Below the pieces are notes generated by a model. The model made no database searches. It worked only from the letters and a program-made list of their open reading frames with translations, and had not been told where the DNA came from. Source: Bacteroidota bacterium (GTDB lineage: Bacteria > Bacteroidota > Bacteroidia > UKL13-3). Taken from it: a DNA stretch of 64,000 bases. Shown piece by piece: positions 40,104-47,812 of this stretch. The position numbers and the translations under genes are program-made. The first letter of the stretch is position 1; each line of letters begins with the position of its first letter. Location: positions 62,001-126,000 of the forward strand of contig CANHVU010000004.1 of assembly GCA_947464275.1 (NCBI GenBank), written 5' to 3'.

Positions 40104-40139
40104 CAAAGTTATTGGTTAATTAAGTTGATAAGCAGCAAC

Positions 40140-40179
40140 AACAAACGTCACTGCGAGGAACGAAGCAGTCTCAAGTGAT
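40140..40179 (+). repeat. 40-base dispersed repeat (CACTGCGAGGAACGAAGC type), copy 1
   Basis: This 40-base segment is identical to 41301-41340, and a near copy is at 45075-45111 (GTAGC for GAAGC). The core is CACTGCGAGGAACGAAGCAG. It marks the outer limits of the larger composite repeat units. Confidence 0.85.
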
Positions 40180-40230
40180 AGAAGACATAGGTTAATTAGT
40201 TAATGTAGTTGATAAGTATTTTATAACTTT

Positions 40231-40618
40231 ACCTTTGGTCAGTGTTTACAAAGACCATTTTATGTAAGTCTTATTAATAGCAATATTTATAACAAAAAAA
40301 ATCAAGTCATTCTGGAGGAATCTCCTTTGTATGGCAACCAAGTTAGCTAATGGATAAGTCATTTCTTTTTTTTGCTTTCTTTTTTTCTTCATACTTTTTG
40401 CATTGCCCAAAAAGTATGCAAAAACGCTAGACAACACTTCGTCCGATAGCTATCGAACTTTACTAAGTGACCGAAACTACCCACCCGCATCCCGAAAGCT
40501 TTCGGGATTGAAGCACGGCCCTCCCGAAAGCATTCGGGATTATTGTCTGCCCTACGCTCGCCTACTTTTGATATTTTTGGTAAATTTTTGGCATTTAACA
40601 ACCATGTTTAGGTTCATT
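40231..40618 (+). repeat. Composite dispersed repeat unit A (divergent, rich in palindromes)
   Basis: It begins with the degraded hairpin GGTCAGTG...AAAGACC, followed by the shared blocks ATTTTATGTAAGTCTTATTA, GTCATTC(TGG)GAGGAATCTCC and GGCAACCAAGTTAGCTAATG. Its second half differs from the other units and holds perfect palindromes: CGATAGCTATCG at 40444-40455 and ATCCCGAAAGCTTTCGGGAT at 40489-40508, then an imperfect one at 40522-40540. No convincing gene is encoded. Confidence 0.75.
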
Positions 40619-40947
40619 GCCTTTGGTCGGTGTTTTCACCGACCATTTTATGTAAGTCTTATTAATAGCAATATTTGTAACAAAAAAGTCAAGTCATTCC
40701 GTAGGAATCTCCTTTGTTTGGCAACCAAGTTAGCTAAGGGATAAGTCACTTCTTTTTACTTTTTGTTTGGGCAAAAAGTAAAGCAAAAAGCCCACCACTA
40801 AATCCAAATTTCAATTTTTCTCTCGCACTTCCCAACGCCACTCGGGCCGAAAAATTAAAATTTCGCGCATTTAGTGGACATCCACCCACACCACTTTTCC
40901 GCTCCTTTTTTTTGAGTTGATTTGAAATCCACAACATACGTCACTTT
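40613..40947 (+). repeat. Composite dispersed repeat unit B
   Basis: A 330-base unit. It starts with a perfect hairpin GGTCGGTG-TTTT-CACCGACC (40625-40644), then the ATTTTATGTAAGTCTTATTA block, GTCATTCCGTAGGAATCTCC, a T-rich stretch ending GGGCAAAAAGTAAAGC, and a long inverted arm pair around 40790-40880 (CCACTAAATCCAAATTTCAA and its near complement ending GCATTTAGTGG). It is directly followed by unit C, so the two are in tandem. Confidence 0.85.
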
Positions 40948-41340
40948 GCCTTTGGTCGGTGTTTTCACCGACCATTTTATGTAAGTCTTATTAATAGCAA
41001 TATTTGTAACAAAAAAAAGTCAAGTCCATTCCCTAGGAATCTACCTTGTATGGCAACCATGTTAGCTAATGGTTAAATCATTTTTTTTCTCCTTTCTTTT
41101 ACTTTTTGTTTGGGCAAAAAGTAAAGCAAAAAGCCCACCACTAAATCCAAATTTCAATTTTTTTTCGCGCTTCCCAACGCCACTCGAGCCGAAAAATTGA
41201 AATTTCGCGCATTTAGTGGACATCCACCCACACCGCTTTTTCCGCTCCTTTTGTTGAGTTGATAAGGTTGATTGGCTATTTGAATTGATTTGAAATCAAC
41301 AACAAACGTCACTGCGAGGAACGAAGCAGTCTCAAGTGAT
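40943..41340 (+). repeat. Composite dispersed repeat unit C
   Basis: The same order as unit B: hairpin GGTCGGTG-TTTT-CACCGACC (40954-40973), ATTTTATGTAAGTCTTATTA, a diverged ATTCCCTAGGAAT block, GGGCAAAAAGTAAAGC, and the inverted arms (about 41138-41163 and 41193-41222). It ends with the 40-base CACTGCGAGGAACGAAGC element (41301-41340), identical to the copy at 40140. Confidence 0.85.
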
Positions 41341-41399
41341 ACGAGGTTTAGGTTGATTGTTAATGGAGTTTATGGAGTAAATAAGTATCTCATAATTTT

Positions 41400-41440
41400 G
41401 TCTTTGGTCGGTGTTTTCACCTACCATTTTAACTAAGTAT
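41400..41440 (+). repeat. Truncated repeat unit D
   Basis: Only the first part of the unit remains: CTTTGGTCGGTGTTTTCACC followed by TACCATTTTAACTAAG. It stops just before the 3' end of the membrane-protein gene at 41450, and the hairpin may serve as that gene's transcript end. Confidence 0.7.
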
Positions 41441-41449
41441 AATAATCAA

Positions 41450-42154
41450 TTACTTCAGTTCATACCATCCAATTTCTAACAACCCATTGTAATAATCTAT
41501 ATCTACATAATCGCCAATATTTTTCGAGTCGTAATACTTCTGTTTGACATTTTCGGTTTCATTTTTAGTTTGAGTATGCCATCTTTCGAGTATCAAAACA
41601 TTGCTACTATTTTTTCCTTTGGTTTCATATTTTTCTATAATTCTAGCTGAAAAGTAATTAGATGGCGAACTGTTAAAGGCGCAGTTTATAAAAATTACTA
41701 TTGCAAAGCTGTAAAAAAAGCCATAAAAACTATTAATTACCATTCGCAATACCAATGAATCTTTTGGCATTTGGGATATTTTTTCAAATATTATAATAAA
41801 TAATACTGTTAAGACAATGCTGTAAATCCATACTAACGTATAGCTAAAAATAGTATAATCAGAACCAATTTTTATAACCATACCGCAAACAGCTATCACG
41901 CAAGCTAAACCTATATTGGGCTTATTGCCATCTTCATGGTCATAAATAATAATGCCTTTGTATTCGCGTAATAAATACATACACGCAAATGGAACCAAAG
42001 CCATTATAACAAAGGCTAATTGAGTAGCTGTTGATGTAAATGTTAGCCATGCAAATAAAGCAAAAACTATTATGTTAAAAGCCCTAACTGTGTTTTTAGC
42101 TTGCCTATAACTTATAGGCGGTTGGTTTTGGTTGGTTCTTTTTTTTCGCATCAC
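41450..42154 (-). CDS. Membrane protein of unknown function
   Basis: A 234-residue protein with five or six hydrophobic helices between about residues 20 and 165, preceded by a basic Asn/Gln-rich start (MMRKKRTNQNQPPISYRQAKN). The C-terminal 70 residues are soluble and probably periplasmic (YFSARIIEKYETKGKNSSNVLILERWHTQTKNETENVKQKYYDSKN). I do not recognise the family. It lies 3 bases downstream of the TonB receptor gene on the same strand, so the two are probably co-transcribed. Confidence 0.7.
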   Translation of the reverse strand: MMRKKRTNQNQPPISYRQAKNTVRAFNIIVFALFAWLTFTSTATQLAFVIMALVPFACMYLLREYKGIIIYDHEDGNKPNIGLACVIAVCGMVIKIGSDYTIFSYTLVWIYSIVLTVLFIIIFEKISQMPKDSLVLRMVINSFYGFFYSFAIVIFINCAFNSSPSNYFSARIIEKYETKGKNSSNVLILERWHTQTKNETENVKQKYYDSKNIGDYVDIDYYNGLLEIGWYELK

Positions 42155-44539: not shown

Positions 44540-44711
44540 ACTTATATTATTGCAAATTTGTATAAATAAATGGAATTGAGAAGTAATGGACAATTTATTT
44601 TGAAATTTGGTTCTTTGCTGCTGACTGCTAGCCTCTGGCTGTTAGGGTTTCGAGAATGTAGTTTACTTAATATTTATGTGGCTAAAGCCAAATTGCTTGT
44701 ATTAATTTTAT

Positions 44712-44731
44712 CAGTTGCTTAAAAGCAACTG
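44712..44731. repeat. Palindromic element
   Basis: CAGTTGCTTAAAAGCAACTG folds as a 9-base stem with a 2-base centre. It follows the shorter palindrome TGGCTAAAGCCA (about 44680). Both lie in the 217-base stretch between the receptor gene's 5' side and the repeat cluster, where nothing coding is seen. Confidence 0.55.
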
Positions 44732-44756
44732 CAATAGATAGTGAATAAACTATCTT

Positions 44757-45111
44757 TGCCTTTAATGTTTTTTTTCACAGACCATTTTATGTAAGTCTTA
44801 CTAATAACAACATTTATTATAAAAAAAGTCAAGTCATTCCGTAGGAATCTCCTTTGTATGGCAAACAAGTTAGCTAATGGATTAGTCACTTCTTTTTCTA
44901 CTTTCTTTTTACTTTTTGTTTGGGCAAAAAGCCCACCACTATATCCAAATTTCAATTTTTCTTTCGCACTATCCAATGCCACTCGGGCCGAAAAATTAAA
45001 ATTTCGCGCATTTAGTGGACATCCACCCACACCACTTTTTCCGCTCATTTTTTTTGTGTTGATTTGAAATCCACATCAAACGTCACTGCGAGGAACGTAG
45101 CAGTCTCAAGT
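44757..45111 (+). repeat. Composite dispersed repeat unit E
   Basis: It has a degraded first hairpin (…TTTTTTTTCACAGACC), then ATTTTATGTAAGTCTTACTA, GTCATTCCGTAGGAATCTCC, GGCAAACAAGTTAGCTAATG and GGGCAAAAAGCCCACCACTA. The inverted arms (about 44935-44960 and 44990-45021) are well kept. It ends with the CACTGCGAGGAACGTAGCAG element (45075-45111). It is the second-locus counterpart of units B and C, about 4 kb away, with the receptor operon between. Confidence 0.85.
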
Positions 45112-45170
45112 TAACAAAGTTTACCGCACTTAGTCTGAACTATGATTTATTTGATTTTAATGATTTATTT

Positions 45171-45290
45171 GCCTTTGGTCAGTGTTTTCACCAACCATTT
45201 TATGTAAGTCTTATTAATACCAAAATTTATAACAAAAAAAGTTAAGTCATTCCTTAGGAATCTCCCTGGTATTAACTAGTTGCATTCCAT
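45171..45290 (+). repeat. Partial composite repeat unit F
   Basis: It begins with the hairpin GGTCAGTG-TTTT-CACCAACC, followed by ATTTTATGTAAGTCTTATTA and GTCATTCCTTAGGAATCTCC. The later part of the unit is missing. Confidence 0.75.
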
Positions 45291-45339
45291 TAACTTTTAT
45301 CACAGAACCCTAAAGAGAAAGTAATTTCATTTTATAAAC

Positions 45340-45470
45340 AGTCATTCCGAAGGAATCTCCTTTGTATGGCAACCAAGTTAGCTAATAGATAAGTCATTTT
45401 TTTCTACTTTCTTTTTACTTTTTGTTTGGGCAAAAAGTAAAGCAAAAAGCCCACCACTAAATCCGCACAT
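45340..45470 (+). repeat. Partial composite repeat unit G, cut off near the HIT-fusion gene
   Basis: It contains GTCATTCCGAAGGAATCTCC, GGCAACCAAGTTAGCTAATA, GGGCAAAAAGTAAAGC and CCCACCACTAAATCC, then breaks off where unit B/C would continue with AAATTTCAATTTTT. The methyltransferase-HIT gene ends 53 bases later, so the break marks a junction between repeat and accessory genes. Confidence 0.75.
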
Positions 45471-45522
45471 TATTATATTGATAGCTGCTGGCATTTTGGG
45501 AATTTTGAAATTGTATTCATTA

Positions 45523-46383
45523 TCAATATTTCTGTTTTTCAGGTATAACGCCTCTTACTCCGCCTCTTGGTTCTTTTACATCACCTTCATATCTTGGAAT
45601 TAAATGGATGTGAACATGAGGAACGGTTTGTCCTGCTGCTTCGCTGATATTTATTCCAATATTGAATCCATCAGGATTAAATTGTTTTGTCAAAATTTCT
45701 TTTGCTTTGTTTAACATCAACCAACAAGCAGCTTGTTCTTTAAATGACAGTTCAAAATAATCTGAACAATGTTTTTTGGGAATAATTAAAGTGTGACCAT
45801 TATTAACAGGAAACTTATCAAAAATAGCATAAGCTGTAGCCGATTCTAAAATCAATTCTCTTTCCGAATCTGGATTGCAAAACGGGCAATCAAGATGATT
45901 TATTTTGCTTACTTGGTTGAAATGCTGGTATTCATATATTTCACAATTTTCGTTTTTGAAAATTGAGTGGTAATTCAAAACTACATTACATTGATAAGTT
46001 GGTTTTTGATGAACTTTATGGGTTCTGAAACCTTCAAATTGTAAATCTCTTCTTACTGCAAAATAGGCTTTTCCAGTTGGCTTTAGGAGTTGTGAAATTT
46101 CCATCAATACATTTGCTTGTTCTTCTTGCATCAAAACATTAAGTACGTAAAAACAAATGATGGTATCAAACTTTTTTGTAGGATAAGTTGGAAAATAATG
46201 TTTGTCGTACCCTACAACATTTATTCCTTTCGCATTCAATAACTCTACATCTTTACCAAAGCCGCAACCGAAATCTAATACATCGCCTATCAATAAACTT
46301 CTATTCAATAAAAGTTTTGCTGGAAAGGAAAGTGTTTCTCTTTCTTTTGCTGTTAAATGATTGTATTGATTAGATTGTATCAT
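45523..46383 (-). CDS. Methyltransferase-HIT fusion protein
   Basis: A 286-residue fusion. Residues 1-160 form a class I SAM methyltransferase: VLDFGCGFGKDVELLNAKGINVVGYD (motif I Gly residues at 39-43), KFDTIICFYVLNVLM and LLKPTGKAYFAVRRDL. Residues 164-286 form a HIT domain with the CPFC zinc pair (Cys166, Cys169), NNGHTLIIPKKH and the H-x-H-x-H nucleotidyl-hydrolase motif VPHVHIHLIPRYEGD (His256, 258, 260). HIT proteins hydrolyse or transfer nucleotides from NMP-linked substrates. The gene overlaps the upstream HNH gene by 4 bases (ATGA). Together they look like a nucleic-acid-processing or defence unit; function is inferred. Confidence 0.85.
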   Translation of the reverse strand: MIQSNQYNHLTAKERETLSFPAKLLLNRSLLIGDVLDFGCGFGKDVELLNAKGINVVGYDKHYFPTYPTKKFDTIICFYVLNVLMQEEQANVLMEISQLLKPTGKAYFAVRRDLQFEGFRTHKVHQKPTYQCNVVLNYHSIFKNENCEIYEYQHFNQVSKINHLDCPFCNPDSERELILESATAYAIFDKFPVNNGHTLIIPKKHCSDYFELSFKEQAACWLMLNKAKEILTKQFNPDGFNIGINISEAAGQTVPHVHIHLIPRYEGDVKEPRGGVRGVIPEKQKY

Positions 46384-47435
46384 TTTAAAAACTCAAAGCC
46401 ATTGTTTGATGCAATAGTAATTAGAGGTTGAATCCTTTCTTTAAACTTTTCTTTAGAAAAATTCTTGTCTAAGTCAGGAAATATCGTCAAGTAATCTTCA
46501 AGAAATTTGTTCTTAGGGTTTTTATCCATCACAATTTTAATGGCTGTTTTTTGCATATCAAAAAACGAATTGAAATACTTTTCAAGTGGTGGAAGTTTAT
46601 CACTCTTAGAACTATTGAATGATTTGTCAGCAGGAATTAAATTCCAAATCAAATCGTGAGAAACAAAATTATAAGGAATAAAATGTTCAACAGCATAATT
46701 TCCAATTGTGAGTTTCTCTCCAGTATAAATACATTTTACCGAACCAAGTTCATTTAATACCAAATCCCAAAATCCTTTTCGTTGTGTTATTAAACCACTT
46801 CTTTGTGCTGGCTTAATCAACTTGTTAGGAATATCTGGAACATTTGGATTTTTTGATTGCAAAAACAAAGCTAAATTCCAATAACAAAAATCTTTAAGTA
46901 CTCTTGCGTTTGAAGTCAAATAATTTGTCCAATTGGGATTGATTGCAATACTGGTATCATGTAAGGCATACAAGCAATTTTCTTTGAAATTTTTGGAATC
47001 AGAATAAATTCTTTTCTGTTGTTGACTATCGGTTTCGTTTGTTATTTTGGGAAACCATGGACTTAAAAACCAGTGAGGAACATTTTTATTAAAATGCCAA
47101 AGTTGTCTTTCAGTTTCTCTGTTTGTTGTTGCACAGAGTTTTTGAAAAACTAAATGTTGTTTTTCATCAATTGATATTTTTTCAATTTGATTTAATGCTT
47201 CAATTACTTGTTGAATTAAATCTTGCTTGCCAAATGAAATACGAAAATAATTTACCGTGTACCATGCATTAGATATCATTCTAGCAAATAAATTTCTTTT
47301 GGAAACATTTAAGTTCCCTTTTTCAACTTCTTGCAAAATGGATAGAAGCCAATAATACTTGTAAGTTGCAGAAGTATTATTGAAACAAGCTGCTAAAAGA
47401 TTAACAGGTAAACTATTTGAATTAGGCAGTTGCAT
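46380..47435 (-). CDS. HNH endonuclease domain protein
   Basis: A 351-residue protein with a C-terminal HNH nuclease domain: VKCIYTGEKLTIGNYAVEHFIPYNFVSHDLIWNLIPADKSFNSSKSDKLP. Cys235 begins the zinc or structural knuckle, His251 is the general base candidate, and Asn274 and Asp279 follow in the N-x-S-K-x-D block common in defence-type HNH proteins. The first 225 residues are helical with several aromatic patches (WYTVNYFRISFG, WHFNKNVPHWFLSPWFP) and match no domain I know. It is the first gene of a two-gene unit with the methyltransferase-HIT fusion. It begins at the ATG at 47435 after a 377-base AT-rich spacer. Confidence 0.8.
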   Translation of the reverse strand: MQLPNSNSLPVNLLAACFNNTSATYKYYWLLSILQEVEKGNLNVSKRNLFARMISNAWYTVNYFRISFGKQDLIQQVIEALNQIEKISIDEKQHLVFQKLCATTNRETERQLWHFNKNVPHWFLSPWFPKITNETDSQQQKRIYSDSKNFKENCLYALHDTSIAINPNWTNYLTSNARVLKDFCYWNLALFLQSKNPNVPDIPNKLIKPAQRSGLITQRKGFWDLVLNELGSVKCIYTGEKLTIGNYAVEHFIPYNFVSHDLIWNLIPADKSFNSSKSDKLPPLEKYFNSFFDMQKTAIKIVMDKNPKNKFLEDYLTIFPDLDKNFSKEKFKERIQPLITIASNNGFEFLK

Positions 47436-47812
47436 TTAAATCTTTAATTTTATATTATAAATTTCTCTATTAGTTTTTCCTTAAGTTGTCGAAACATCTT
47501 TTCTAATGAAAAGTCTTATTTTTTACAAATTAATTCAATTTTTATTTCTTATTGACACCATCTAGATTTTATTTATTAACCTTTTATGCAATTAGTTCTT
47601 AGTTCGAAGTTTTTAGTTCAAAGTCCTGAGTTTTTTATGGATTATGTCCCTCCTATCCAGCTTAAGGTTTTAGTTTTATGGAAGCTAAAAACAATATGCG
47701 TGAAAGTCTGCATTAATATGCGGCATCTGCGTGAAAGCTTTCCAACCCAAACCATTCAAAATTTTTTACTTTAACAATACCTTTTAAAGTTTAAATTCGC
47801 TCCAACTGAAAT
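47436..47812 (+). other. Intergenic region with AGTTCTTAGTT-like simple repeats
   Basis: A 377-base divergent spacer between the HNH gene and the DUF4175 gene. It holds short degenerate repeats of the AGTTCTTAGTTCGAAGTTTT type (47591-47630) and two copies of TGCGTGAAAG (about 47697 and 47728). No believable gene or RNA was found. Promoters for both flanking genes must lie here but no box is clear. Confidence 0.45.

Follow-up and report, generated by a model that had tools for sequence, protein, structure and literature searches.

In Bacteroidota and related bacteria, we identified a two-gene unit in which an HNH nuclease is encoded directly upstream of a methyltransferase-HIT fusion protein (MT-HIT), and found that the nuclease gene has been swapped for distant alleles while the MT-HIT partner was kept. 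In our judgement, there is an even chance that the pair constitutes a mobile restriction-type defence module, in which an exchangeable DNA-sensing nuclease would be combined with a constant nucleotide-processing partner. The analysis directly established that the two genes are almost always paired, that the unit is inserted, that defence genes neighbour it, that the nuclease gene alone is exchanged and that the catalytic residues are conserved; from this we infer a defence function of the pair. Our search of the openly searchable literature found no published description of an HNH and MT-HIT pair, so an entry in an existing list is possible; a word search of the Dnd and BREX surveys showed no mention of a HIT partner.

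The window, the whole 64,000-nucleotide stretch of DNA analysed, contains both genes on the minus strand, with the HNH gene first and the MT-HIT gene second (Table 1). The earlier note had described them as a unit with overlapping stop and start codons and had named Cys235, His251 and Asn274 in the nuclease as well as motif I (residues 37-43) and HxHxH (256-260) in the fusion. Both reading frames indeed share an ATGA, and all of the named residues and motifs are present with the correct numbering.

Table 1. Features of the HNH/MT-HIT unit and its surroundings, in window positions
Feature	Position	Strand	Basis or remark
HNH nuclease gene, type A, 351 aa	46380..47435	-	Pfam HNH_4 match; type A/B swapping; proposed role: exchangeable component
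N-terminal helical domain of HNH protein, residues 9-209	46809..47411	-	AlphaFold2 model, fold/profile comparison, residue invariance
HNH_4 nuclease motif of HNH protein, residues 235-282	46590..46733	-	
Overlap ATGA, HNH stop/MT-HIT start	46380..46383	-	
MT-HIT fusion gene, 286 aa	45523..46383	-	Proposed role: constant component
Compact class I SAM methyltransferase domain, MT-HIT residues 9-155	45919..46359	-	TIGR04096 relation, VIA fold match
HIT domain, MT-HIT residues 173-266	45586..45867	-	HVHIH at 256-260; conserved PRGGVRGVIP tail after
Approximate inserted segment (intergenic repeats and unit), between TonB-receptor gene and 1131-aa gene	44644..47737	.	~345 bp in relatives

The nuclease matches HNH_4 (PF13395) with a Pfam E-value of 4e-9, above the gathering cut-off. 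C235, H251 and N274 are invariant in all 42 homologues, as are N265 and K277, and position 250 is Asp or Glu throughout. H251 and N274 align with the DH...N residues of Cas9, whose HNH domains are the nearest relatives of the HNH_4 domain by profile and fold. Judged by its sequence, the protein is an HNH_4 family nuclease with the D/E-H ... N residues in place, and it presumably possesses nuclease activity.

The AlphaFold2 model of the nuclease (pLDDT 86) is mostly helical over residues 9-209, where T24-Y25-K26 and V119-P120 are invariant in the alignment of homologues. The top structural rows of VIA-align for this domain were Cdc6, in its winged-helix region (Z 6.5), and ScoMcrA, in its sulfur-binding domain (Z 6.1 over 116 residues), scores so low that they may arise by chance among helical folds. 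Using hhalign, a sulfur-binding-domain profile aligned its APHKPLLLL stretch to SATYKFYWLL of the HNH profile (E 0.0098, score 23.5); 41 controls for the HNH profile reached at most 20.5, although one control scored 27.9 against the sulfur-binding profile. The pocket residues of ScoMcrA are H116, R117 (Lys in most homologues), Y164 and P165 (PMC6224610), to which the invariant Y25, K26, V119 and P120 of the HNH protein may correspond one-to-one. Profile comparison of the HNH N-terminus with DUF4007/SspB gave no match, and the window protein had no NF045808 match at E<=1. The N-terminal domain probably senses DNA, in its backbone or modification state, a role to which the low similarity in the modelled fold and in the profiles points weakly.

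The N-terminal part of MT-HIT matches Methyltransf_23 (E 7e-11), and its glycine-rich motif I (DFGCGFG) and modelled Rossmann-type fold identify it as a class I SAM methyltransferase. The fold resembles small-molecule methyltransferases (VIA Z about 12). The C-terminal part matches HIT (PF01230) with an E-value of 9.5e-22 and fold matches of Z about 14, and sequence and model alike assign it to the HIT family with the HxHxH triad kept. D37, G39, G41, G43, D60 and H260 are conserved in all 45 homologues, and H256 and H258 in 44 of the 45 each. HIT enzymes act on nucleoside monophosphate linkages. HINT1, a HIT protein, acts on dGMPS, a deoxynucleoside phosphorothioate (PMC8775712). AMP- or thio-nucleotide linkages would be our guess for the HIT substrate, and the substrate of the methyltransferase is equally a matter of guesswork. 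A stand-alone HIT protein with no HNH annotated nearby (L012:7001-7363), 54% identical to the HIT domain of MT-HIT, is encoded near an RtcB gene on a 603-kb Jeotgalibacillus plasmid.

A profile search with MT-HIT found 359 relatives among 84,980 species genomes, the best 80 of which, from named genomes, we examined as loci. The adjacency posited for the two genes recurs across genomes, and co-occurrence is far from rare: an HNH nuclease gene lies directly 5' of MT-HIT on the same strand in all of these 80 best loci. The upstream nucleases of 79 loci belong to one broad HNH set, the eightieth (L149) being an HNH_2 nuclease, and the two reading frames overlap in 76 of the 79 loci measured. The pairing is thus close to obligate and beyond chance. 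Seen from the nuclease, an HNH relative is present in 24 of 395 genomes of the phylum, and MT-HIT or HIT adjoins it in about 17 of these 24. A HIT protein lacking the methyltransferase is paired with HNH in four loci (G035, G329, Hymenobacter canadensis and Polaromonas), which indicates that the broader core consists of HNH and HIT. Partnerless HNH genes of the family also exist (L055, L061, L005, L006), and such genes adjoin Ssp genes on cyanobacterial and Hymenobacter plasmids. In L069, L070, L071 and L085, the HNH proteins comprise 555-590 residues, with an N-terminal class I methyltransferase preceding the HNH motif in the two that were scanned (L070 and L071); L071 also has an MT-HIT downstream of this type of HNH protein, its C-terminus damaged.

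Two large HNH types occur at the MT-HIT loci, type A of about 353 residues, which includes the window protein, and type B of about 370 residues. Although less than 20% identical globally, the two types are recognised by hhalign as remote homologues along most of the sequence (probability 98%, E 2e-13), and the TYK motif near the N-terminus is invariant in both. MT-HIT proteins that are 92-94% identical are found with either type; the nearest MT-HIT to that of the window by tree path (L087, 87% identical) accompanies a type B nuclease. The exchange is most clearly seen between Algoriphagus limi (L132) and A. kandeliae (L144), whose DNA is 95.6% identical to just before the HNH start, unalignable in the HNH gene, and again 90% identical over 8.8 kb from the MT-HIT start. 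The pair L139/L136 repeats this one-gene pattern with flanks 95.4% and 94.9% identical. On the MT-HIT tree, parsimony counts about 20 changes of HNH type, at least 11 of which are forced by strongly supported branches of this quick tree, and HNH distances correlate only weakly with MT-HIT distances (r 0.30). In L149, the HNH slot is occupied by a full-length homologue of NF045808, the ScoMcrA family (2e-26, below the curated family cut-off), with an APHKP motif, a stronger hint of sulfur or DNA sensing than the fold or profile similarity. These one-gene exchanges are natural experiments, in which partner and flanks are constant and the nuclease differs, so that the role of the partner for any nuclease is separable from the target of each nuclease.

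Within the genus, MT-HIT is present in 2 of 10 genomes, namely the window genome and one of its nine congeners, and at the order level in 3 of 64, one of them with HIT alone. In three congeners with an empty site (G039, G043 and G042), 344-351 bp (about 345) lie between the two genes that flank the insert, which encode the TonB receptor and the 1131-aa protein; in the window the distance is 3,495 bp. G037 was left out of this comparison, as its contig ends inside this interval. The insert is also present in G036 with about 88% nucleotide identity. The distribution is mobile and patchy, in keeping with the accessory cassette envisaged in the earlier note, rather than that of a single-copy core gene. 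Dispersed intergenic repeats (62-176 nt families) flank the TonB-receptor gene beside the insert at 40136-41468 and 44751-45464, and many copies occur at the same place in G036. In the phage and viral collections, an HNH relative turned up in one phage record and HNH in one viral contig, alongside two distant methyltransferases; given so few matches, a phage-borne system was ruled out for the collections searched.

The neighbourhoods, scored up to about 8 kb from each of the 80 MT-HIT loci, are enriched in defence genes over expectation, as the earlier note had anticipated for a defence module. In counts that include kindred loci and ignore their shared ancestry (L124 and L129, for instance, are from congeners), DUF4007/SspB lies near 7 of 80 loci versus 25 of 395 genomes (about 325-fold enrichment), JetA of Wadjet near 6 of 80 versus 57 of 395 (about 120-fold), and the full mREase_IV helicase near 2 of 80 versus 40 of 296 (about 43-fold). 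The tested defence families lie near a minority of the loci, about 24 of 80. A gene for SspA, SspB, SspC or SspD adjoins the pair in about ten, and SspA and SspD genes abut it in L165, L093, L102 and L145. PADLOC on 150 neighbours returned SspB, SspD, SspA/DndA and type II methyltransferases among its matches; RecQ/DpdF matches near the pair were discounted, since ordinary RecQ also scores there. Run on the two proteins themselves, PADLOC matched no model convincingly. No clear defence gene adjoins the copy in the window, whose surroundings are apparently housekeeping genes with few PADLOC matches among 29 neighbours. Just 5' of HNH, N-terminal DUF4007/SspB fragments of ~50-110 residues were seen in five loci (L095:2981-3403, L098:6256-6594, L100:6618-6890, L102:6717-6887 and L114:3136-3363), as if the pair had taken the place of the remaining Ssp operon. 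SspD-like proteins of 366-386 residues with an apparent insertion abut HNH/MT-HIT in three (L093:5797-6957, L102:8877-9983 and L145:8884-9984).

In the defence module that we propose, the N-terminal domain of the nuclease would sense DNA through its backbone or modification state, and the C-terminal HNH domain would cut the DNA so sensed. MT-HIT, as the constant partner, would act on nucleotides or nucleotidyl adducts that are produced by the nuclease or control it. It might process the products of cleavage, clear a signal or regulate the nuclease. Phages or other incoming DNA would favour nucleases that recognise new targets or evade inhibitors, and the nuclease gene would thereby be exchanged for distant alleles with the partner retained. 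We know of no established role for HIT hydrolases in restriction-type defence, and the pair ties a HIT enzyme to a nuclease in a widespread, mobile and testable case. A bolder extension, which we regard as possible though somewhat unlikely, would make the pair a novel type of immune module built from two genes. In it, the fixed MT-HIT would serve a range of interchangeable HNH nucleases, sensors of DNA backbone or modification, as the shared partner that processes or activates, and HIT chemistry, by removing nucleotidyl or thio groups, would be indispensable for restriction or for self-protection.

The tight overlapping operon and near-obligate pairing would also suit a toxin with an enzymatic antidote or switch, where the HNH protein is a toxic DNase kept inactive by MT-HIT, either through modifying or de-modifying the nuclease (e.g., nucleotidyl removal) or through destroying an activating nucleotide signal. 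A precedent is ThsC of type II Thoeris systems (PADLOC; PMC8565338), a HIT protein joined to some of these defence operons and proposed to act as an off-switch on a nucleotide signal. However, ThsC is similar at the family level only (37 bits), no ThsA/ThsB was seen with our pair, the partner here is a nuclease, and a methyltransferase is fused to the HIT domain. A single MT-HIT family serves nucleases less than 20% identical to each other and even an HNH_2 nuclease, which makes an antidote by specific binding unlikely, and the partnerless HNH genes also count against the toxin reading. We consider this reading unlikely.

Rather less likely still is an accessory to DNA phosphorothioation, in which HNH would sense or restrict by phosphorothioate and HIT would strip sulfur or AMP from (thio)nucleotides freed in modification or cleavage. 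The Ssp genes next to the pair and next to partnerless HNH genes on plasmids, the weak similarity to the sulfur-binding domain, the ScoMcrA-family homologue in L149 and the activity of HINT1 on dGMPS would all fit, and MT residues 9-93 are related to TIGR04096, a DNA phosphorothioation-associated putative methyltransferase (E 2.2e-15, 56 bits). This match covers model positions 5-92 of 478 only and falls far below the curated cut-off of 150 bits, so that the N-terminal 85 residues are related to, rather than a member of, the family. We know of no HIT fusion in TIGR04096. Against this reading, SspD was found in 2 and DndC in 1 of 21 genomes examined, and among the 19 with MT-HIT or HIT pairs SspD is absent from 18 and DndC from all. 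The window genome (G000) lacks SspD, DndC and DUF4007. With most host genomes devoid of DndC and SspD, phosphorothioation is not a general requirement. Moreover, several adjacent SspB genes are fragments, and the complete Ssp loci observed have HNH without MT-HIT. SspE and DndI, the HNH effectors of Ssp/Dnd systems (PMC11662687), have a DUF262-DUF1524 make-up, unlike our nuclease, and MT-HIT has not been described in those systems. ScoMcrA-type HNH endonucleases (NF045808; PMC6224610) share with our nuclease an N-terminal domain, DNA-sensing there and putatively so here, followed by a C-terminal HNH, and a weak alignment suggests that [YH]-K and Pro positions may be conserved in both. They differ in that type A HNH has no sequence match to the family, and types A and B have the HNH_4 rather than the HNH_2 motif, a longer helical N-terminal region and the MT-HIT partner.

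The mechanism of the earlier note, in which HNH yields nicked or nucleotide-tagged ends that an aprataxin-like HIT deadenylates and the methyltransferase caps, draws on conserved catalytic histidines and on the established chemistry of aprataxin, which removes AMP from DNA ends; it is highly improbable, as the HIT domain is closest to Fhit/HinT/Ap4A-type enzymes rather than aprataxin in profile and fold searches, and the methyltransferase resembles the small-molecule type and is missing from the four HIT-only pairs. Ordinary restriction-modification, with the methyltransferase guarding host DNA and HNH cutting unmethylated DNA, has in its favour the shared operon and restriction-modification genes adjoining some loci, but is scarcely credible given the HIT-only pairs and a small-molecule-like domain of ~150 residues that ends at ~residue 155, has no target-recognition region and shows YVLNVL in place of [DNS]PP[YFW].

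Two further elements recur near the pair. A giant helicase of 1350-1620 residues was observed in L074, L135, L138, L143, L149 and L151, with DEAD and UvrD helicase domains in L149. In L087 (8860-9337), L088, L096 and L097, two small reading frames of ~80 residues each follow 3' of MT-HIT and possibly represent a toxin-antitoxin pair.
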